Assembly: GCA_001789205.1 (NCBI GenBank)
Contig: MFYT01000042.1
Span: 1 to 63,012 of the forward strand
Reading direction: 5' to 3'
Source of the DNA: Candidatus Raymondbacteria bacterium RIFOXYA2_FULL_49_16
Lineage (GTDB): Bacteria > Fibrobacterota > OXYB2-FULL-49-7 > XYB2-FULL-49-35
DNA length: 63,012 nt
Shown here: positions 5,683 through 62,608 of the stretch, in pieces
Layout: each line of letters starts with the position of its first letter
Position numbering within the stretch: the stretch's first letter is position 1
Program-made: the position numbers and the translations under genes
Notes under the pieces: model-generated
The model's input: the letters and a program-made list of their open reading frames with translations, nothing else
The model's database searches: none
What the model was told of the DNA's origin: nothing

Positions 5683-7082
5683 TTAATTTCTATTTCCATG
5701 GCAAAATGAATCAAACGTCCAGGCGCGATAGCGCGAGACTTTGAATCCCTGTCGCTTCTGTGTTCGGCGTAGAGCAATGAAACCTTACCAAAAAGAGGTT
5801 CTTTTTCGAGATTTGAGTAAAAAAGAGAGATCCCCGCATTGTCGGCGCCGGTAGCGGAAAGAGAAATCTGTTTCCGTTTTTCATTGTCAATGATGTGTAA
5901 TTCATTGAAGCGGATGGAATGCGGGCACGCGGTTGCAAGAATCTCAAAAATCCTGCTTTTGGCAACTGACATGTAGGTTATGGATGAAAGTTTCATCACT
6001 TTTTCCCTGATGGCTTTGTTTTCCCGATGCATTTTCTGGAGCTTCTCAACGGCGATATTTTGAGTGTCCACCGTATCTTTCAGCCCTGTGATGGCATGGC
6101 GAAGGGATATTGTCACGCCGGCCAGCACGAGACAGACAAGGACGATTGCAGTGAAACCATATCTCACTATACCCTGATAGAGGGTATGCAGGCGCCTTTT
6201 TTCAGCTATCTCCCTTGGTATGACTGACGCGTGGTTGATGTTTTTCTTGAAATGCGCGGAATTGAAAACGAGTGCCCAGGGAAAAATAAATTCATCATAG
6301 CAAGGCACACGCGGAGTACGCAAGGCCCATCCCATTTTCGCGTAGTATTCGGCCAATGTTTCCCGCGAATCGCCAAGTATGCTCATTGTTCGTATTTTCT
6401 CTCCCTTGCATTTATTTTCCCAGAAACTTGAAATGAAGGTGTCTATAATCTGTGCGAAACGGGCTGGGTCAGCACTAAAATCCTGGCTGCCCGCTGGAAG
6501 TGTGGCCCCTTCCGCAAGAGTGCCGTCAGGAGCGTATATAAACGCGTTTGTTTCAGTATTGCCTACAAAAAGGAGAGCCCCGGGACTTGGGTGGGATGCG
6601 CTTGCTTGGATAGCAATACCTAACTCATATGGTCCGCATCCGATTCTTTCGACAAAAAGATCAGCTTCGCCGGTGGTTCGACTAAGTTTTTCCTCTGTTT
6701 GCCGTTTCATGGCGTTGATCAAAACACTATGGTCCGAGAGCGGCATGCTATCCTGAATAATGGTATCGGCCGGAATACACTCGGGCAGAATGGAGGGGAG
6801 GGGCAGAGCTCCGGCTTCAGAGAGCATATTGGTTTTGTGAATGATCCTGGATATCGTTTCATGTTCGCCGGGAGAGGTCGCTATGCTGTCAGGCGCCAGA
6901 GCGTTTCGGCCGATAAAATCAATTAACGATTCATTCTTTTCGCTTTTTATTTTCCGGACCACACGAATTTCAGGGAAAGTCTGGATTGTTGCATAGTAAT
7001 ATACGCCCTCTTTATGGTACAGGGCCGATCTGTATTGCGGTATGGCGAGGAATCGTCGTAGGAATGCAAACACTGGGAACAC
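5679..7082 (-). CDS. GspL/PilM-PilN-like assembly protein
   Basis: A 467-aa protein in two parts. Residues 1-300 look like a degenerate actin-like PilM/GspL cytoplasmic domain. A membrane helix at about 308-330 (YGFTAIVLVCLVLAGVTISL) is followed by a coiled coil and a PilN-like periplasmic ferredoxin fold. A natural PilM-PilN fusion is the GspL architecture. It would couple the ATPase GspE to the periplasmic complex. The start is a GTG that directly abuts the secretin stop. Sequence similarity in the cytoplasmic half is weak, so I rely on layout and gene order. Confidence 0.65.
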   Translation of the reverse strand: MFPVFAFLRRFLAIPQYRSALYHKEGVYYYATIQTFPEIRVVRKIKSEKNESLIDFIGRNALAPDSIATSPGEHETISRIIHKTNMLSEAGALPLPSILPECIPADTIIQDSMPLSDHSVLINAMKRQTEEKLSRTTGEADLFVERIGCGPYELGIAIQASASHPSPGALLFVGNTETNAFIYAPDGTLAEGATLPAGSQDFSADPARFAQIIDTFISSFWENKCKGEKIRTMSILGDSRETLAEYYAKMGWALRTPRVPCYDEFIFPWALVFNSAHFKKNINHASVIPREIAEKRRLHTLYQGIVRYGFTAIVLVCLVLAGVTISLRHAITGLKDTVDTQNIAVEKLQKMHRENKAIREKVMKLSSITYMSVAKSRIFEILATACPHSIRFNELHIIDNEKRKQISLSATGADNAGISLFYSNLEKEPLFGKVSLLYAEHRSDRDSKSRAIAPGRLIHFAMEIEIK

Positions 7083-9017
7083 CTATTTAGCCAGCTGCCA
7101 TTCTTTAATGATTTCTTCGTGTTTTACGTTGGCATCGCTCCCGAAATAAATATGCGGGGTAAGGAAGATCATCATTTTTGTCTTGACCTCTCTTTTTGTC
7201 TTGTGGCTGAAGAAAAAGCGTAAAACAGGGATTCTACCCAATATGGGAACACGTTCAATGACTTCCTGTTGATTGGTAGAGATGAGTCCCCCAAGAATAT
7301 ATGTTTCGCCGTTCTTAAGCCTTACCGTTGCCGTGATTTCACGGGTGTTGATGGGGGGCGGGATTTTTCCCGGCATGGGGCTTACCCCGGGTATCTGAAA
7401 AATCGGTTTTATTTCCACAGTGACTTGATCGTTGGAGGTTACCCATGGTGTTACTGACAAAGAAATATTTGCCTCATAGCTTTCCAGGCGTTCTGTGGTT
7501 TGGTGCCGCAGTGTGTTGTCGCCAGACTCTATCTCGCTTGTCAGGAGAATGTATTCACGGGTGCCGATTTTAATGAGGGCAGTATGGCCGTTCAGTGTGG
7601 CGACCTGGGGAGTGGATTGAACGTTCGCGAGGCCCTGGCTTTCGAGAAGGTTGATTTGGGCGCGGAAATCGGATGGAAGTTTGACGATCTGTTTTAAACC
7701 AAGAAAATCAGACGCTTTAGACAAATAGCCGTTTACGTCTTCTCCCCGGGCCTGCAACGCTATTTTCGGACTGATCTGTCTTTTGAAAATCGATGAGTCC
7801 CCGGATGCTTGCAGGAACGCCTTGACTCCCGTTTCATCCATTCGAGAGATGGAGAAGTCCACCACAAGCGCTTCAATGAGGATTTGCGGCACTGGTTTGT
7901 CTATAAGGGCGATATACTCCCTGCACGCACGGATTATATCGTACGACCCAATGACCATGATCCCGTTCTGTTCCTTTATGACCTTGAGTACGGCCTGTTC
8001 GATAACCGATTTCGGCAGCAGCTCCAGAATCTGATCGGCTTTCAGATTAGAGAGCTTGATAAGTTCGTAGTTTGTAATTTTTTTCTGGCTTTCATCTCCA
8101 ATGAAATAGACCTCCCCGTCTTTCCAGAGAGTGTATTTCGTGTTGCTCAATAGAAATTCTATTGCCTTGTCTATGTTGAGTGTGTCGATATTTGCGGTAA
8201 CGCTGCCTTCGATGGTGCCGAAAAAGAAGATGTTCATATTTGCTTGAAGGGCTATTTCCTCAAGCAGTTGCTTTAGCGAAGCATTGTTCGCTTCAAATCC
8301 AATCTGCCGTTTGTCTATTATTCTGACAACGCTGTTTTGGCCGCGGCCCACCGCTTTGCTTCCCAGCTGGCTTTCGCTTTCTTTTTTCATGACATAGAAA
8401 ATGCCGCCCGACTCTTTGATGTCAAATCCGTTGCTGCCCATCAGGATCTTGAACCCTTCTTTCTTTTCCAAATTCGTCAGAAAACCTGTTATTCCTCCGG
8501 AAAGGCCTTTCTCGGCTACCACGTTAATGTTTGTCAGTTGCGTATATTTTCGTGTTACCGAATCGAGGGGCACGTTGGTAAGTTCAAAGGATATTCTATC
8601 GTTTCGCAAAACCATTTTTACCGGGGCCGCTGGCAGTTCCTCGGGCTTGGGTATTTCTTTGAATATTTCGATGATATTGTTCCTGACCCTGAATGAAAAG
8701 CCATACCGTGTAACGATGAATTTTATTGCATCTTTCAATTTAATGTTCGTCAAATGGATCGGTATGACTCCGTTGACCTCAGGTGAAAGCCAGATATTAA
8801 GCCCATATTTTTCGCCAAAACCTCTTAATACGTCGCGTATGTCAGCGTTTTTAAGATTTAGCGATGAAATTTTTATGGAATCAGGAACCGGAAGGTCTTG
8901 TTTCTCTGTCATGGACTGGGATGTTCCTGCGGCAGCAGGGGTTTCTACAGTCTGATCGTAGGATATAACCCAAGCCGTTCCTATTAAAAGAAGGATTAAT
9001 AGTTTTGTACGTATCAT
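7083..9017 (-). CDS. gspD: Secretin, outer-membrane channel GspD/PilQ-like
   Basis: The protein has a signal peptide (LLILLLIGTAWVIS), several N-domains including ISSLNLKNADIRDVLRGFGEKYG (a secretin/TonB short N-terminal domain) and N1-type repeats (TADQILELLPKSVIEQA-like at about 330). The C-terminal secretin barrel carries VRLKNGETYILGGLI, VPILGRIPVLRFFF and KTKMMIFLTPHI. About 644 aa is typical. It forms the outer-membrane gate. I chose ATG 9017 because GGAGG lies 8 bases upstream (9026-9030); a TTG directly after the gspE stop is in frame but lacks its own ribosome site. Confidence 0.92.
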   Translation of the reverse strand: MIRTKLLILLLIGTAWVISYDQTVETPAAAGTSQSMTEKQDLPVPDSIKISSLNLKNADIRDVLRGFGEKYGLNIWLSPEVNGVIPIHLTNIKLKDAIKFIVTRYGFSFRVRNNIIEIFKEIPKPEELPAAPVKMVLRNDRISFELTNVPLDSVTRKYTQLTNINVVAEKGLSGGITGFLTNLEKKEGFKILMGSNGFDIKESGGIFYVMKKESESQLGSKAVGRGQNSVVRIIDKRQIGFEANNASLKQLLEEIALQANMNIFFFGTIEGSVTANIDTLNIDKAIEFLLSNTKYTLWKDGEVYFIGDESQKKITNYELIKLSNLKADQILELLPKSVIEQAVLKVIKEQNGIMVIGSYDIIRACREYIALIDKPVPQILIEALVVDFSISRMDETGVKAFLQASGDSSIFKRQISPKIALQARGEDVNGYLSKASDFLGLKQIVKLPSDFRAQINLLESQGLANVQSTPQVATLNGHTALIKIGTREYILLTSEIESGDNTLRHQTTERLESYEANISLSVTPWVTSNDQVTVEIKPIFQIPGVSPMPGKIPPPINTREITATVRLKNGETYILGGLISTNQQEVIERVPILGRIPVLRFFFSHKTKREVKTKMMIFLTPHIYFGSDANVKHEEIIKEWQLAK

Positions 9018-52898: not shown

Positions 52899-52935
52899 GG
52901 CCCGCTTCGCTCTCGCGATGCGAGGCGAGCGAGGC
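52899..52935. repeat. GC-rich palindromic repeat, copy A
   Basis: A 37-base element starting GGCCCGCTTCGC and ending GCGAGGCGAGCGAGGC. It is nearly identical at both ends to the element at 62571-62608. The two ends are imperfect inverted repeats of each other, so single strands could fold. Confidence 0.6.
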
Positions 52936-54530: not shown

Positions 54531-57500
54531 ATGGCCTTGTTTGGCGGAAATAAATATCAGGAAGACAACGAAAAACTCCGCCAGGAGGTTGTCCGCCAGA
54601 AGCTGGAAATTGACGACCTCCAGCGCCGCCTCAAATCCGGTCCCAAACTCGCCCCCGCATACCAGTCCATAGCAGGCCTTGAGCAAAAGGTCTTTTCTCT
54701 TGATAATAATAACCGCATCACCTATGTGAACACAGCCCTTGCCAATGTTCTGGGCCAGGACAAGAACCGGCTCATGGACCGTCCACTGGTCGAGATTGAT
54801 ACCTTTGCCTGGGGACCTGGTTTTGTCGCTGTTCTTGTTGACCTGTGCAGAGCAAAGAACGAGAAGGTTGCCAGAGAGCGCAGTTATTATGACCGTGACC
54901 TTGGCAAGGATGTTCATATTAAGATAACGGTTACGCCTGTTGACGCGACTCTCCAGATAGTTATAGAAGACATTACCGAGCACAAAGAACTGGAAAAGCA
55001 TTTTGAGAGGTATGTTTCCCCCAAGGTGCTTGAGGCCATGAAGAGGCAGAGCACTGATTACATGATGCCCCGCAGATACGAGCTTTCGGTTGTTTTCGCT
55101 GACCTTCGAGGTTTTACCTCTATGAGCGAGAAGATGCCGCCTGAAATTGTACGCGATACCCTCAACGACTACCTGAAGGCAATGGTTGCTGTAGTGAATA
55201 TGAATGACGCCATGGTGGACAAGATAATAGGGGACGAGGTCATGGCCCTTGTTGGCGCTCCCATGGCATACGCTGACCATGCGATCCGGGCAATTAAGAT
55301 GGCAGTGGATATGCAAGAGACGCATGCCCTTCTCCAGCGGCGATACAAGGCAGAGGGCAAGGTCATGCCCGGCATAGGCATTGGCATAAACAGCGGGGAC
55401 ATGCTTGTTGGCAATATTGGCAGTGACAGAAAGACGGATTATACTGCCGTGGGCCATGCGGTGAACCTTGGGAGCAGGCTGTGCAGCATGGCAAAAGAGG
55501 GAGAAACGCTTATTTCCGGCCGCACAAAGGGACTTCTTCTCCAGCATGGAGGATATGAGCAGTATTTCACGTTTGAAGAGCGTGAGACTGTCGAAGTAAA
55601 AGGCATAAGCGCTCCTGTGACAGTATATGCTGTGAGCGCCGCAAAGAAGCTCGATTTTGTTCTTGATGCAATGGAATCCCAGGCCAACGCAAAGGCGATT
55701 GCCGCAGAACGAAAGATATTTGGCAAATACGACCTGTTAGAAGAATTGGGCCGCGGTGGCATGGGTGTTGTGTACAAGGCCCTGCACCGCGACCTTGGAA
55801 GGATTGTGACGCTTAAAGTTCTCAAGACAGACCTTTTGACCATAGGGAAACAGCAGAAGGAGATGTTTAAACGCGAGGTGGAGACAGCGTCCAACCTGAA
55901 ACATCCGCATATTATAGGCATACACGAATATGGCCTCGTTGATGGCAAACCCTATTTTACCATGGATTATGTTGAAGGCTGCACATTGGCTGATGTTTTA
56001 TCGTACACAGCCGGGCCCGATACCAAGGGCAGCACAGTCGGCGAGATTGTGAAGAGCGTTATTGCAGATCGCAAGGAATCTTCCAAAGACCATGCACAGG
56101 CACAGAAAACCGAAGAACAGCCTGCTGCGCGCAAACAGCGTCCCTTGCCCATAAACCAGGCGCTTGCACTGATCGTGAAGCTTGGCCGGGCAATTAACCA
56201 CGCCCACGAGCGGGGTGTTCTGCACAGAGACATAAAGCCCTCCAATGTTCTTGTGGGCAAAGATGGCGAACCTGTTCTTATAGACTTTGGCCTTGCCAAG
56301 CAGGTAGAGGGTATGGACCTTACAATGACAGGCCAGATACTTGGCACGCCATTGTACATGAGTCCTGAACAGGCAGAGGGCAGGAGGGGCGAGATAAGCG
56401 AGCGGAGCGATATCTATTCTCTTGGCGCATTGATGTACGAGCTTGTGACCGGCAGGCCACCTTTTACAGATGCACAGAACATTGCAGAGGTTTTGCGCAA
56501 GGTATCGCGCGATGACCCGCCCAAGGCCAGAAGGATAAACCCCCGTGTTCCTCGTGAGGTTGAGATAATTTGCGAAAAGGCCATGAGCAAGGAGCCTACA
56601 AAGCGTTATGTTACCGCAGGCGCCTTTGCAGATGATATTGACAGATATCTGACAGGCGAGCCCATCCAGGCCAGACCACCCAGTCCTATATACATTGCCC
56701 GAAAAAAAATAGCCAAGCACAGGGTTGTTGCAGGCGCAATCGCGGCTGTATCCATTGCTGCGGTTGTTGTCTTTGCAGTATGGTGGCGTTCCACTGCCGA
56801 TGTGCGTGAACAGAAATGGAAGGCAATGCAGTCAGCTATAGCGTTGTATGAGGAAAAGGAGAAGGCAAAGGGCAAATGGATACTGGAATATGAGGATAAT
56901 TTCAACAGGGCGGAGTTAGGGGAGAAGTGGAAAACAAGGGTCATTGGTACAGGGAATATAGGATTAAAAGACAGCGCACTGGTCTTTAATGGCAGGAACG
57001 TGCAGGCTTATTACGCAAAACCCGTATATGGGAACGTGCGCATTGAGTTTGATGTCATGGTGCGCGATTCCGGGGAATTTGAGGCCATTCTGTGCGCTGA
57101 TTCGCTCTTGCGCGGCGGCGGCAAGTATTACGGGCTTAACTGGTTCAGGAACAGCGTGAACATAAACCGGGGTTGGATGCTTGGCGCTGCCGGTGTGCTG
57201 TTTGATAAAAATCAGACTGGCGAGGACACGCTCTATAAAAACAGGTGGTACCATATAATTGCCAAGAAAGTGGATGATTCGCTCTCATTTGAGCAAAACG
57301 GCAGACTATTGGGAGGTGTACGCATTACATTGCCCTTTGGACAGAGAACCAATGTTTTTTGCGGGTTTATCATGCCCAGCAGCGAATTCGAACGCCGTAC
57401 CGCCATATTCGATAATGTGAAGATATACAGGCAGCAGCTCGCTGAAAAGGTGGATGTAACGCAGATAGGGGAAGCCTATTATACAAAGGGCCAGTACGAA

Positions 57501-58844
57501 GACGCGCTTGCCTTCTTTGACAATGTACTTTCCACTTACGAATCGCCGGGCATTCGCGGCATTGCCCTGCGCCGGGCATGCAACCTGGCGAGAGAAGAAA
57601 GGTTTTATACTGCGTGCAGCAAGTACTTTGCAGGTTTTGGCTGCGGCGAATACGACAGCATCATGGGCTTGTCGGAAAGGACTGTTTTAAAGAATATGTT
57701 ACATGCGGTCATTCTTGATTCCGCAGCTGGTTTTGTGGCTGTAAAAGGTTGGGAGGCCGCAATAACACAGGCTGTTTCTGCAGGTGACAGCGTTATGACC
57801 GGGTTTTTCAAGGAGCTCCTTTTTCTGCACAGGCCTGATGCGTTAAAAAACTTTGAATTCATGGTTCGCAATGATGGTGTTTTACAAGGTTTTATGGATG
57901 ACCGGGAGATGCGGGAACTTGCTATTGGAATGGTGATACGCATGAACGCGATCGGGGACCGGGACAAGACTCTGAAGATGGCAGAGGCCGCTCTCAGGGC
58001 AGGGTGCGCTCAAGAACTTGTGCGTCAAACATCCGCTGCGGAGAAATACACGGGCGAAACGAAAAAAGGCATGCGCAAAATACCCGGAGGCACGTTCATT
58101 GACTATGCAGGCAGGGCAGTATATGTTTCAGGGTTCTTGGCGGACACGACTGAGGTTACGCAGGCGGATTATGTGGCAATGACTGGAGGCAATCCATCGA
58201 ATTTCAAAGGTGACCCGAAGAGGCCAGTTGAGACAGTGACTTGGTTTGACGCTGTTTTATATTGCAATGCGCGGAGCAGGCGGGATGGATTGGACACGGT
58301 GTACAGTTACATTTCAAAAACAGTTACCGGAGATGGTTGCAGAAACCTTTCCGGTCTTGTTATAGATACCTCAAAACACGGTTACAGACTCCCCACAGAA
58401 GCGGAATGGGAATACGCGTACAGGGCCGGGACAACAGCAGACTGGTATTGGGGCGGCAGGTATGATGGCATGGCCTTGAATTTTGGAGCAGACAGCGTGC
58501 TGGCAGACAAACATGCAGTTTACTATGGGAACTCAATGGGTTTTGGTGCTGCAAATCCGAGTTATGGCACACATGAGGTTGCGACAAAGCTGCCGAATGC
58601 ATTTGGGCTGTACGACATTGCCGGTAACGTGTCTGAATGGTGCAATGATTGGTACGAAGTTGAGGGTGTCGCCGTTGGTGCATTGATAAACCCGATTGGG
58701 CCTGGGAAAGGTACACAGCGGGCGTTGCGCGGCGGCTCGTGGGGCAACTTCGAGAGCAACCTCCGCGCTGCGAACCGGGGCGGCAACGATCCTGACAATC
58801 GGGACGACGACGACGGTTTCCGGGTAGTGTTGCGCTCGCGGTAA
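54531..58844 (+). CDS. DGR target: PAS-cyclase-kinase-TM-LamG-TPR-FGE receptor
   Basis: A 1437-aa membrane protein. A coiled coil (9-36) and PAS domain (45-150) lead to a class III cyclase (about 178-370) with metal Asp191 and Asp235, ATP-type Lys231 and Asp303, Asn312 and Arg316, all present. A Ser/Thr kinase (400-710) has GRGGMG, Lys429, HRD 565-567, DFG 585-587 and SPE 611-613, with a 50-residue insert near 490-540. One membrane helix (731-751) puts the rest outside: a LamG/DUF1080-like domain (782-955), TPR (about 975) and an FGE/C-type-lectin domain (1180-1437: [37 protein letters not shown]...GFRVVLR). The FGE catalytic Cys are absent, so it binds rather than oxidises. Its last 33 codons hold the variable repeat. 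Confidence 0.92.
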   Translation: MALFGGNKYQEDNEKLRQEVVRQKLEIDDLQRRLKSGPKLAPAYQSIAGLEQKVFSLDNNNRITYVNTALANVLGQDKNRLMDRPLVEIDTFAWGPGFVAVLVDLCRAKNEKVARERSYYDRDLGKDVHIKITVTPVDATLQIVIEDITEHKELEKHFERYVSPKVLEAMKRQSTDYMMPRRYELSVVFADLRGFTSMSEKMPPEIVRDTLNDYLKAMVAVVNMNDAMVDKIIGDEVMALVGAPMAYADHAIRAIKMAVDMQETHALLQRRYKAEGKVMPGIGIGINSGDMLVGNIGSDRKTDYTAVGHAVNLGSRLCSMAKEGETLISGRTKGLLLQHGGYEQYFTFEERETVEVKGISAPVTVYAVSAAKKLDFVLDAMESQANAKAIAAERKIFGKYDLLEELGRGGMGVVYKALHRDLGRIVTLKVLKTDLLTIGKQQKEMFKREVETASNLKHPHIIGIHEYGLVDGKPYFTMDYVEGCTLADVLSYTAGPDTKGSTVGEIVKSVIADRKESSKDHAQAQKTEEQPAARKQRPLPINQALALIVKLGRAINHAHERGVLHRDIKPSNVLVGKDGEPVLIDFGLAKQVEGMDLTMTGQILGTPLYMSPEQAEGRRGEISERSDIYSLGALMYELVTGRPPFTDAQNIAEVLRKVSRDDPPKARRINPRVPREVEIICEKAMSKEPTKRYVTAGAFADDIDRYLTGEPIQARPPSPIYIARKKIAKHRVVAGAIAAVSIAAVVVFAVWWRSTADVREQKWKAMQSAIALYEEKEKAKGKWILEYEDNFNRAELGEKWKTRVIGTGNIGLKDSALVFNGRNVQAYYAKPVYGNVRIEFDVMVRDSGEFEAILCADSLLRGGGKYYGLNWFRNSVNINRGWMLGAAGVLFDKNQTGEDTLYKNRWYHIIAKKVDDSLSFEQNGRLLGGVRITLPFGQRTNVFCGFIMPSSEFERRTAIFDNVKIYRQQLAEKVDVTQIGEAYYTKGQYEDALAFFDNVLSTYESPGIRGIALRRACNLAREERFYTACSKYFAGFGCGEYDSIMGLSERTVLKNMLHAVILDSAAGFVAVKGWEAAITQAVSAGDSVMTGFFKELLFLHRPDALKNFEFMVRNDGVLQGFMDDREMRELAIGMVIRMNAIGDRDKTLKMAEAALRAGCAQELVRQTSAAEKYTGETKKGMRKIPGGTFIDYAGRAVYVSGFLADTTEVTQADYVAMTGGNPSNFKGDPKRPVETVTWFDAVLYCNARSRRDGLDTVYSYISKTVTGDGCRNLSGLVIDTSKHGYRLPTEAEWEYAYRAGTTADWYWGGRYDGMALNFGADSVLADKHAVYYGNSMGFGAANPSYGTHEVATKLPNAFGLYDIAGNVSEWCNDWYEVEGVAVGALINPIGPGKGTQRALRGGSWGNFESNLRAANRGGNDPDNRDDDDGFRVVLRSR
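58719..58799 (+). repeat. DGR variable repeat (VR)
   Basis: 81 bases aligning without gaps to the template at 60334-60414. Differences are nine substitutions at template adenines (seven A-to-G, two A-to-T) and three C-to-T in the last 10 bases. They change target residues 1405 (N to G), 1407 (N to F), 1409 (N to S), 1417 (D to G), 1418 (N to G) and 1420 (N to D). All lie on the ligand-facing loop of the C-type-lectin fold. A following GAC run (1425-1428) suggests the true VR once extended to the gene end. Confidence 0.92.
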
Positions 58845-58885
58845 TACATGATTACACTTTGCGCTTTTAAACTTTTACCCTGGGA

Positions 58886-58911
58886 CCCCGCGACGCGGTA
58901 GCGGCGCGGGG
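58886..58911 (+). promoter_or_regulatory. DGR target-site hairpin after the VR
   Basis: CCCCGCG (58886-58892) pairs with CGCGGGG (58905-58911). Inside, after one A-G mismatch, CGC pairs with GCG around the loop GGTA. GGTA fits the GRNA tetraloop reported for hairpins downstream of the VR in the Bordetella phage DGR, where the hairpin aids target recognition. It lies 41 bases after the target stop. No T-run follows, so it is not a typical terminator. Confidence 0.65.
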
Positions 58912-58917
58912 AATTGC

Positions 58918-59259
58918 ATGGGCGACAGTGAAAATGTGATAGAAAAATGCAGGTCGCTTCTTGGAATTCTCGAAATGTATGTGTCCAAGATGCCAAGAGA
59001 ACATAAGTTCACCATGGGCGACCGCATAATGCACAGAGGCATCATGATCCTCGAAGAGACGGTTGAAGCGTATTATGCCCAAAGACAGGGGAAAAAGGAG
59101 CGTGTGCTGCGGATAAACACACACCTCGAGGTACTGCGTCAATTACTGCGACTTTTGTTTGAGCGGGATTTTCATAATCTTCAGAAACACGAACATTTCA
59201 TCCGCGAGATGGACGGGCTTGGCCGGCTACTCGGTGGGTGGGCCAAAAGTCTTGCATGA
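58918..59259 (+). CDS. avd: DGR accessory variability determinant (Avd), four-helix bundle
   Basis: A 113-aa basic helical protein. It matches the Avd/23S-like four-helix family by the pattern FTMGDRIMHRGIMILEETVEAYY, LRINTHLEVLRQLLRLLFER and the C-terminal EMDGLGRLLGGWAKS. Avd forms a basic pentameric barrel that binds the reverse transcriptase and template RNA and is needed for mutagenic retrohoming. It sits directly between the target and reverse transcriptase genes. The stop overlaps the next start (ATGA), so both are co-translated. ATG 58918 is preceded by GGGG in the hairpin's second arm. Confidence 0.9.
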   Translation: MGDSENVIEKCRSLLGILEMYVSKMPREHKFTMGDRIMHRGIMILEETVEAYYAQRQGKKERVLRINTHLEVLRQLLRLLFERDFHNLQKHEHFIREMDGLGRLLGGWAKSLA

Positions 59260-60521
59260 TCGGAAATACAATACCTTCGTTTGAAACGGTCGCATCAGTA
59301 GAAAACCTGTATTGCGCCTATAAAAAGGCATGCAAGGGCAAAACAGGGCGTGACGATGTTGGTGAATTCCGCATGAAATGGGAAACGCATCTCACAAAGC
59401 TATCTGATTCTCTACTGTCGGGCGAATACCAGCCGGGACGGTACACCATGTTCATTGTCCATGAAAAGAAGACACGAAAGATAATGGCCACACCCTTCAT
59501 AGACAGGATCGTGCACCATGCTATTTGCAATGTGATGACCCCTGTTCTTGAACGCTCAATGGTTCCCAACACCTGCGCCAACAGGGTAGGCAGGGGAACG
59601 GGCGAAGGGCTGCGCCTGTACGCCAGATTTGCAAAACGGTATAGGTATGTCCTCAAATGCGATATACGGCATTTTTTCCCTTCTATAGACCGGAAAATCC
59701 TGCTGGATTCGCTCAAGCGGAAAATACAGGACGCGCGGCTGCTTGAACTTGTCCGCACGGTGCTGTTTGTAGCACCCGCCATTTCGGACAATGCACCTTA
59801 TTTTCCCGGAGACACGCTTTTTACGCCACACGAACGGGAACGCGGCCTGCCCATAGGCAACATGACCAGCCAGACATGGGCCAACTGGTACTTGGACCCA
59901 CTCGATCATTTTATAATGGACTTCAAGGGTTTTGGCGCGTATATGCGCTATGTTGATGACTTTGCCGTGTTCGCCGACGACAAGGTGGCGCTGGCATGCC
60001 TTAAAAATGAAATACAAGAGTTCCTGTGCAGGCTTCGTCTCATCATACATCCGGACAAGTCACGCGTGTACAGGACTGCGGACGGCGTGCCTTTTCTTGG
60101 TTTCCGGCACTGGTCAACGCACAGGGTCTTGTGCAAGCCGGGCCTGCGCAGGTTCAAGCGCAGGGTGAGGCAAAAGGCAAGGATTGCCGCAGCATCGGGT
60201 GACATGCGGGCTTTGCGGTCATCAATCGCGGGATGGTCTGGTTTTGCGCGTCTGGGAGACACATACAGGCTGCGCATGCGATTGCGTGAAGAGATACGGG
60301 GAATTCTGGATAAGGGGCAGGGCGGAGCGCTGACGGGCGTTGCGCGGCGGCTCGTGGAACAACAACGAGAACAACCTCCGCGCTGCGAACCGGGACAACA
60401 ACAACCCCGACAACTGAGGGAACACAAAGGGATTATGAAACGCTTATGGGAACAAACCCTTCTTATAATTGGAATGTATATCTTCAGTATCTTCACTACG
60501 ACTCTTTACTTTATCCTGTAG
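59256..60521 (+). CDS. DGR reverse transcriptase
   Basis: A reverse transcriptase of the DGR clade. It has [29 protein letters not shown] (first catalytic Asp), [10 protein letters not shown] (197-206; the SQ motif separates DGR enzymes from group II introns), YVDD at 232-235 ([10 protein letters not shown]) and LGFRHW. It would copy template RNA into cDNA with errors opposite adenines. ATG 59256 overlaps the avd stop; a GTG at 59238 is an alternative. The frame runs on through the template repeat in a different phase and ends in the fused FGE fragment, so the last roughly 60 residues (from about [10 protein letters not shown]) are not native protein. Confidence 0.93.
60334..60414 (+). repeat. 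DGR template repeat (TR), apparently truncated
   Basis: The 5' 24 bases (CGGGCGTTGCGCGGCGGCTCGTGG) match the VR exactly and contain no adenine. The next 57 bases hold 23 adenines, mostly in AAC codons, the usual DGR substrate that avoids stop codons. Homology stops at 60409-60414, where the sequence enters an FGE gene fragment in another frame. The VR continues for 42 more coding bases, which should have counterparts here. The missing end would include the 3' homology needed to start copying. Confidence 0.88.
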
Positions 60522-61099
60522 AAAGAATTACTTGGTTTGACGCAGTTCTATATTGCAATGCAAGAAGCAAAAGAGATGGATTAGATACGGTATATTCATA
60601 TACGGCGGTTTCCGGAATTCCTGGCGATGGGTGTGATGATTTAGTCGGCCTCTTTATGGACACTTCAAAATATGGCTATCGTTTGCCTACAGAAGCTGAA
60701 TGGGAATATGCATGTAGGGCGGGTAGTACTACCGATTATTATTGGGGCCAGAATTATCCACCTGTGACAAGTGCAGACTCAGCTCGTATTGACAGCTATG
60801 CGGTTTATGGAGATTTTGTATTTCCCGTCGCCACAAGAATGGCAAATTCTTGGGGCCTTTATGATATGAGCGGTAATGTGTTCGAGCTTTGTTATGATTG
60901 GTATGGTACATATTCGGATAGTGAAGTATACGACCCAACTGGGCCAATATATGGTTTATATCGTGAATTTCGTGGAGGTAGTGGTGGATTTAGAGGTGCT
61001 TTTGATACCGATTATTTACGTTCATCGTATCGATATGGCAACTTATATCCGAGTTCACGCAGTGCTACAACAGGTTTTCGGACGGTTATGCGAAAATAA
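60409..61099 (+). pseudogene. 5'-truncated FGE-domain gene fused to the template repeat
   Basis: From ACAACTGAG the frame reads [19 protein letters not shown], an FGE domain joined in mid-domain, then [57 protein letters not shown] and RGGSGGF...GFRTVMRK. The first third and any start are missing; the earliest usable ATG is 60446. It is clearly more AT-rich, with T- or A-ending codons, than the target and reverse transcriptase genes, so it has a different origin. It is not a VR: its last 40 codons do not derive from AAC codons. Confidence 0.8.
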
Positions 61100-61304: not shown

Positions 61305-62465
61305 ATGCAAAAAAACATTATTGACACGCAGGAATACCGGCAATTCATCGCTGCACTGAAAGACCGCGTTACCGCATCCCGAATTTCAGCGGCCAAGGCC
61401 ATCAACCGTGACATCATATTTCTCTACTGGGACATTGGAAAAGGCATTGTCGAGAAGCAGGAGAAACTCAAGTGGGGAAATGCCGTAGTCGAAATGGTTG
61501 CCCGGGATCTTCGAGAATCATTTCCGCAAACCCACGGTTTTTCATCCCAGAACGTCTGGCGGATGCGGCAATTTTATCTTGAGCACACTGCCCCCGAATT
61601 CCTGAAAATAGCCACAATGGAACTGAAATCTTCGCGAATTACGCCGACTAAGACAATTCTCTCACAAGCTGTGAGAGAATTGGACCCCTCCGGCGCCAAA
61701 AAGGAGATTCTCTCACAGGCTGTGAGAGAATTCCTGACCCGTGTTCCCTGGGGTCACCATGCGAACCACCTTTCCAGGATAAAGGACCCCGTCGAACGCT
61801 TCTATTACATCCGTGCCACCGCCCAATTCGGCTGGAGCAGGAACGTTCTTCTTAATCAAATCAAGGCGGGGGCCTATGAACGTGCAGTTGCGGATAAAAA
61901 GACCCACAACTTTCCGGCAGTTCTGCCGGAATACCTCGCGGAACAGGCGGATGAAGCGCTGAAAAGCTCATATAACCTGGAATTTCTCGGGATCCAGAGG
62001 GAGGTCAAGGAGCGGGTGCTTGAGGACCATCTTATCGACCAGATCCAGCGATTTATCTTGGAATTGGGATACGGCTTCTGTTTCATCGGCCGGCAGTATC
62101 GGATGGTCCTTGAAGACAAGGAATATTTCATTGATCTTTTGTTCTATCACCGTTTTCTTAAATCCCTGGTTGCCATTGAATTGAAAGTCGGTCCCTTTGA
62201 GCCTGAGTACGCCGGGAAAATGGATTTTTATCTCAACCTGCTCAATGAAAAGGAGAGGGGGCCAGGGGATAATCCAGCCATCGGAATCATTCTTTGCGCT
62301 AAAAAGAACGATGTGGAAGTCGAATTCTCTCTCAAAACAAAGGGCAATCCCATCGGGGTCGCGTCATATAGCCTGCAGAACAGCCTGCCTGAGAAATTCA
62401 AAGGGAAGTTGCCGTCACCTAAACAGTTCTCCGAAGTCGTCCGTGCCGCGCTTCCTTCAAAATAG
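61305..62465 (+). CDS. YhcG-like PDDEXK nuclease (DUF1016)
   Basis: A 386-aa protein of the YhcG/DUF1016 family. The N-terminal domain has AINRDIIFLYWDIGKGIVEKQ and SSQNVWRMRQFYLEH. The C-terminal PDDEXK nuclease domain has EDKEYFIDLLFYHRFLKSLVAIELKVGPFEPEYAGKMDFYLNLL, with Asp and ExK ligands, and GIILCAKKNDVEVEF. These proteins occur with restriction systems and mobile islands; their target is not settled. Two in-frame palindromic repeats (61655-61731) enlarge the linker between the domains. The ribosome site is poor. Confidence 0.88.
   Translation: MQKNIIDTQEYRQFIAALKDRVTASRISAAKAINRDIIFLYWDIGKGIVEKQEKLKWGNAVVEMVARDLRESFPQTHGFSSQNVWRMRQFYLEHTAPEFLKIATMELKSSRITPTKTILSQAVRELDPSGAKKEILSQAVREFLTRVPWGHHANHLSRIKDPVERFYYIRATAQFGWSRNVLLNQIKAGAYERAVADKKTHNFPAVLPEYLAEQADEALKSSYNLEFLGIQREVKERVLEDHLIDQIQRFILELGYGFCFIGRQYRMVLEDKEYFIDLLFYHRFLKSLVAIELKVGPFEPEYAGKMDFYLNLLNEKERGPGDNPAIGIILCAKKNDVEVEFSLKTKGNPIGVASYSLQNSLPEKFKGKLPSPKQFSEVVRAALPSK
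61655..61731. repeat. Tandem palindromic repeats inside the nuclease gene
   Basis: Copy 1 (61655-61681) has perfect 11-bp arms AATTCTCTCAC/GTGAGAGAATT around AAGCT. Copy 2 (61707-61731) has 10-bp arms ATTCTCTCAC/GTGAGAGAAT around AGGCT. They are offset by 51 bases, or 17 codons, and both read ILSQAVRE in frame. Confidence 0.7.
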
Positions 62466-62570: not shown

Positions 62571-62608
62571 GGCCCGCTTCGCCTTCGCGTAAGCGAGGCG
62601 AGCGAGGC
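62571..62608. repeat. GC-rich palindromic repeat, copy B
   Basis: Near-identical to copy A at 52899-52935: both start GGCCCGCTTCGC and end GCGAGGCGAGCGAGGC, differing mainly in the centre. It lies 45 bases before the start of a serine recombinase gene. Confidence 0.6.

Follow-up and report, generated by a model that had tools for sequence, protein, structure and literature searches.

A diversity-generating retroelement of a Fibrobacterota genome whose template, aligned with those of its relatives, is truncated at the 3′ end

The mechanistic prototype of the diversity-generating retroelements (DGRs) is that of Bordetella phage BPP-1, in which the TR lies upstream of the reverse transcriptase (RT) gene and is followed by a spacer. 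This spacer recruits RT-Avd and primes cDNA synthesis (PMC12875486). The IMH sits at the 3′ end of the VR, and the loop of the hairpin/cruciform has the consensus GRNA (Guo et al., PMC3240598). Ser/Thr kinase-CLec proteins are frequent DGR targets in cyanobacteria (PMC7517822). A TR that overlaps the end of the RT gene is a known arrangement, represented by group 3 of DiGReF (PMC3521204). Degenerate loci have also been described: in Thiohalocapsa PB-PSB1 there are DGR loci in which the RT or the TR has been lost or replaced, and intact variants co-exist in the population (PMC10907252).

The stretch of DNA analyzed here, the window, is one whole contig of 63,012 nt from a draft genome of 5.43 Mb in 112 contigs. 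It carries a target gene with its VR, a GC-rich hairpin, avd, an RT gene and a TR, in that order and all on the plus strand (Table 1). The initial annotation had placed these parts in the same order and at the same positions, and all are present as placed. It had also called the set complete; here the DGR identity, the parts and their order stand, but the completeness does not. By all sequence criteria examined the locus is a genuine DGR: the mismatches between its repeats are adenine specific, it has an Avd protein, its RT belongs to DGRs by both motif and phylogeny, its target ends in a C-type-lectin fold (FGE) and a hairpin follows the VR. Missing are the last part of the TR, equivalent to IMH*, and the structured RNA region 3′ of the TR. 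The cassette thus resembles the BPP-1 DGR in its TR/VR pair, Avd, RT (33% identity) and GRNA-loop hairpin, and differs from it in gene order and in that the TR, IMH* and spacer of BPP-1 are intact.

Table 1. Positions of the DGR parts and the fusion junction in the window, and of comparable features in related copies
Feature	Coordinates	Strand	Evidence
Target gene, 1437 aa	54531..58844	+	PF00069, PF00211, PF03781, PAS (Pfam); hydropathy; TvpA match
VR, portion with surviving template	58719..58799	+	ungapped TR match, mismatches at 9/23 A and 3/58 non-A
VR remainder, orphaned, template gone from the assembly	58800..58841	+	faces AAC codons and GG.TT.CG in TRs of relatives
Hairpin/cruciform after VR	58886..58911	+	stem 7+3 bp, loop GGTA, z -4.65
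Avd accessory protein, 113 aa	58918..59259	+	PF22296, NF033474, phrog_3206
DGR reverse transcriptase core	59238..60333	+	PF00078, DGR-type SQ motif, YVDD, tree, 8ub7 match
TR, 5′ two thirds only; overlaps RT ORF in a different frame	60334..60414	+	alignments with VR and with TRs of relatives
Deletion/fusion junction (putative), ~5 bp microhomology	60410..60414	+	FGE codons TTE begin at 60410, TR identity ends at 60414
5′-truncated FGE-sulfatase gene	60410..61099	+	PF03781 E 1e-30; alignment; GC
Pairs with VR longer than TR (VR vs TR)	L044 6437-6577 vs 8063-8185; L087 5785-5930 vs 8000-8140		
Copies with Gln-rich RT tail	window 59238-60521; L044 6954-8192; L045 309-1580, 6097-7335		

The target protein combines a PAS domain, a class III nucleotide cyclase, a Ser/Thr kinase, one TM helix and a C-terminal FGE/C-type-lectin domain. 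The TM helix is predicted at residues ~732-750, with a hydropathy peak of 2.77 at residue 732, and would put the kinase and the FGE domain on opposite sides of the membrane, as expected for a sensor, the function we infer for this protein. In sequence comparison, the best PDB match of the FGE C-terminus is TvpA (2y3c, E 5e-32), a solved DGR variable protein. The genome also encodes a paralogue of the target, a 994-aa frame on another contig (G000 contig C4, 60068-62779; L076, L096) that has an FGE match as well and is 58% identical to the target over the kinase part (residues 397-733). Genome-wide TR and VR searches gave no TR-like match at this paralogue.

Avd is recognized by PF22296 of Pfam (E 1.5e-14), by NF033474 of NCBIfam (76.1 bits, E 2.2e-21, just below the cut-off of 80) and, in a third library, by phrog_3206 ("Avd protein of DGR"); no second Avd copy was found in the genome. 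The GGTA loop of the hairpin after the VR fits the GRNA consensus. The RT has a DGR-type IGxxxSQ-class motif and YVDD; together with the Pfam and NCBIfam matches, this bears out the earlier reading that an Avd and an RT with these two motifs lie between the repeats. Its best PDB match is 8ub7, the BPP-1 RT (E 9e-45); a group II RT comes well behind (1.5e-24), as do all others. A tree of 38 RTs places the window RT with three RTs of the Fibrobacteres bacterium isolate bog_1184 (support 100/100); five cyanobacterial DGR RTs join this group next (95/97), and the group II intron and RT-Cas1 (one sequence) branches lie elsewhere. Grouping with group II introns, which the initial annotation had named as evidence against a DGR, is thus not what is seen in this tree, from which retron RTs were left out. 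A group II intron was rejected on the tree position and on the RT motif, which is not PQGGPLSP; the NCBIfam group II model scores 130.8 on this RT, against a cut-off of 300. The start of the RT ORF is uncertain, similarity to relatives beginning at about residue 11-13. At the other end, the core RT stops near 60320, and the ORF (59238-60521) continues through the TR and beyond the junction. Crossing the TR in the other frame would give the RT a Gln-rich tail (QQQ...), as in 4/4 copies seen (Table 1).

Searching contigs with the RT alone gave no match, and searching with an alignment of four RT sequences gave only the bog_1184 MAG (PLTF01 contigs). The matching genomes belong to one phylum, read as Fibrobacterota in part from TIGR02171 matches. 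The bog_1184 elements are like the window cassette in having an RT ~60% identical, an Avd, an FGE target, an RT ORF that runs through the TR and a GC-rich hairpin after the VR. They differ in having a complete TR of ~123 nt with a structured region after it, in FGE targets that are without kinase or cyclase, and in the IS4-type transposases that adjoin them. The DGRs of cyanobacterial plasmids (Nostoc, Fischerella, Anabaena, Microcystis and Acaryochloris) form the sister RT clade, with 40-42% identity, and likewise have Avd before the RT and FGE targets. Unlike that of the window, their TR begins ~20 nt past the RT stop and, in the four with a readable pair, has a full length of 123-129 nt. 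In two related DGRs, the VR exceeds the TR by in-frame stretches of 18 nt and 24 nt in the AAC-rich part (Table 1), so the length of the VR is variable too, perhaps through slippage in reverse transcription. The Acaryochloris marina plasmid pREC1 (L083 ~5689-5759) has a 71-nt TR-like sequence, 79% identical to window 60344-60414, that lies ~2 kb upstream of Avd, beyond an IS200/IS605 element, and the locus looks rearranged.

Within the window, the VR and the TR align without gaps over 81 nt. Nine of the 23 TR adenines differ in the VR, against three of the 58 other bases (Fisher one-sided P = 3.8e-4), and no VR adenine stands opposite a non-A TR base. These are exactly the counts first reported, as is the placing of the three non-A mismatches in the last 10 bases. 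The bias is sharper still over the first 69 nt, with mismatches at 8/18 adenines and 0/51 other bases (P = 5e-6). Each of the three non-A mismatches is a C in the TR and a T in the VR, at a synonymous third position (58790, 58793 and 58799). All three fall within 10 nt of the break, a clustering for which P is 0.0011 when all non-A sites are counted, 0.0015 when only synonymous transition sites are, and 0.005 for C-ending sites. Synonymous third positions differ at 3/4 sites in the last 12 nt and at 0/22 upstream (P 0.0015). A DNA search and a template-permissive pattern found no second TR or VR in the genome, and IMG/VR holds no exact match to the TR.

Compared with its relatives, the TR is truncated at its 3′ end. 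In DNA alignments its similarity to all three bog_1184 TRs stops exactly at 60414, as do its similarity to its own VR and the 71-nt match to the Acaryochloris plasmid. Where the TR-VR pair of a relative can be read (bog_1184, Nostoc, Anabaena, Fischerella, Microcystis and G030), the TR is 123-132 nt long and includes the "GFR" codon block GG.TT.CG, which the window TR is without. The automatic TR-VR finder overlooked pairs that contain gaps or whose members differ in length (G003 C84 and C46, Acaryochloris). The Prosthecochloris TR also has an ungapped part of 81 nt; there, after a 24-nt gap, the match picks up again through the GG.TT.CG block. On the other side of the break, the window from 60410 onward is the middle of an FGE gene, homologous to nine FGE domains of the same genome, the target among them. 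The alignment of these nine begins at residue 1-3 of the 60410 frame, ~39 residues at the start of the domain are absent, and the fragment has a GC content of 41%, against 53% in the RT core. The TR and FGE similarities overlap by ~5 bp (ACAAC), which would be the mark of a microhomology-mediated deletion. This FGE remnant was considered as a second VR and rejected, as the DNA searches with TR and VR gave no hit to it.

The VR still holds what the TR has lost. Past 58799 it reads CGG GAC GAC GAC GAC GGT TTC CGG, in which GAC GAC GAC GAC GGT TTC CGG faces AAC AAC AAC AAC GG. TT. CG in the TRs of relatives. A search of the assembly for a template of this part, with A allowed at every position, gave only the VR itself and control-level matches, and the missing TR half is on no contig of the assembled genome. 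Since the orphaned codons match the AAC templates of relatives and the assembly offers no template for them, it was a longer TR that last wrote the whole VR, and the truncation is later. A simple insertion of the FGE sequence into an intact TR was rejected, as neither the lost half of the TR nor the post-TR region occurs downstream or elsewhere.

The region after the TR is gone as well. In bog_1184, ~120 nt after the TR are conserved between copies and structured, with 7 compensated base pairs (from three sequences only). Judged by its position and structure, this region would act like the spacer of BPP-1; the need for it is established in BPP-1 rather than in the clade of the window. No Rfam family matches the region in the relatives, and nothing of the bog_1184 type was found in the window or in the assembled genome. 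The z values of the sequence that stands in its place, +1.69 under DNA and +1.94 under RNA parameters, show a fold no better than that of shuffled sequences.

Some repeats were seen around the cassette. Two near-identical 26-bp palindromic repeats (ATTCTCTCACARGCTGTGAGAGAATT; window 61655-61732), in frame and each encoding ILSQAVRE, lie inside a DUF1016/YhcG gene (61305-62465; PDDEXK nuclease). The 16-mer GCGAGGCGAGCGAGGC occurs twice, at 52920-52935 and 62593-62608, 9.7 kb apart and flanking the cassette.

We hold with good confidence that a recent deletion in the TR has disabled or crippled what was an ordinary DGR. The cassette would be a chromosomal-type DGR of a Fibrobacterota genome whose mutagenic retrohoming once altered the ligand-binding face of the FGE/lectin domain at the C-terminus of a membrane-anchored kinase-cyclase sensor. 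Its template would have been a TR of ~120 nt that began immediately 3′ of the RT core and overlapped the RT gene. A deletion would then have fused the TR, about two thirds along, to the middle of a neighboring FGE gene, taking out the last part of the TR, equivalent to IMH*, along with the structured RNA after it and leaving RT, Avd, hairpin and VR in place. Past activity, its loss and the deletion as the cause are inferred. Deprived of the part to which BPP-1 owes RT-Avd recruitment and the start of cDNA synthesis, the cassette of this genome is most probably either inactive or severely impaired. The truncation is probably recent, because the frames of RT, Avd and the FGE remnant have stayed open and the 5′ non-A positions have not diverged. 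Among the degenerate loci of Thiohalocapsa PB-PSB1, mobile elements or MITE-like arrays replaced the lost parts, unlike the fusion to an FGE fragment that cuts the TR midway here; as intact variants co-exist there, the window locus may likewise be one variant of several.

Several observations count against inactivation. The open RT, Avd and remnant frames and the perfect match of the 51 non-A positions in the 5′ part could also mean continued activity. Indeed, with RT and Avd intact and these 51/51 positions of the first 69 nt identical between TR and VR, the 81-nt repeat might be the whole TR of a complete, active DGR and the sequence downstream its 3′ flank. We consider this improbable: the templates of all relatives with a readable pair extend beyond the GG.TT.CG block, the supposed flank codes for part of an FGE protein and has an unremarkable fold, the VR codons beyond 58799 have the pattern expected of AAC template codons, and three non-A mismatches sit at the break. 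Those mismatches are in turn hard to fit to the simple decay of a dead element, which should not cluster, whereas the C>T changes do (P 0.001-0.005). They reflect either a few homing events from a shortened TR ending near 58788, or chance or older history. Homing may accordingly be going on from the truncated TR, with the 3′ boundary of information transfer moved upstream to ~58788; the full homogenization of the 5′ 69 nt at non-A positions and the skew of synonymous third positions toward the last 12 nt would fit. We give this no better chance than a complete element, since the region downstream of the TR that BPP-1 needs for RT-Avd recruitment and cDNA start (PMC12875486) is gone, and three sites are few, so that chance or pre-deletion history could account for them. 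The remaining point is that the assembly is a draft in 112 contigs, and in a related MAG one VR is interrupted by a scaffold gap (Ns); the true locus could be intact and the FGE fragment wrongly joined to it. Such a chimera is, if anything, slightly less probable again, as the two sides of the junction have only ~5 bp in common, the FGE fragment is without a near-identical copy in the genome (the best paralogue is 57% identical in amino acids) and the missing TR half and post-TR region are on no contig.

A deletion in the TR of an ordinary DGR, the reading we prefer, would mean that a DGR can satisfy the standard checks (repeat pair, adenine bias, Avd and RT) though the end of the template from which copying starts is lost. 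The number of active DGRs may therefore be overestimated in surveys that include loci of this sort. If the locus is active despite the truncation, the view of what DGR homing requires would change: a shortened TR that still templates homing without IMH* and the post-TR RNA would be a DGR working with a minimal template. The locus also adds a member from the Fibrobacterota, acting on a putative kinase-cyclase sensor, to a clade of cellular DGRs that has otherwise been met in cyanobacteria.
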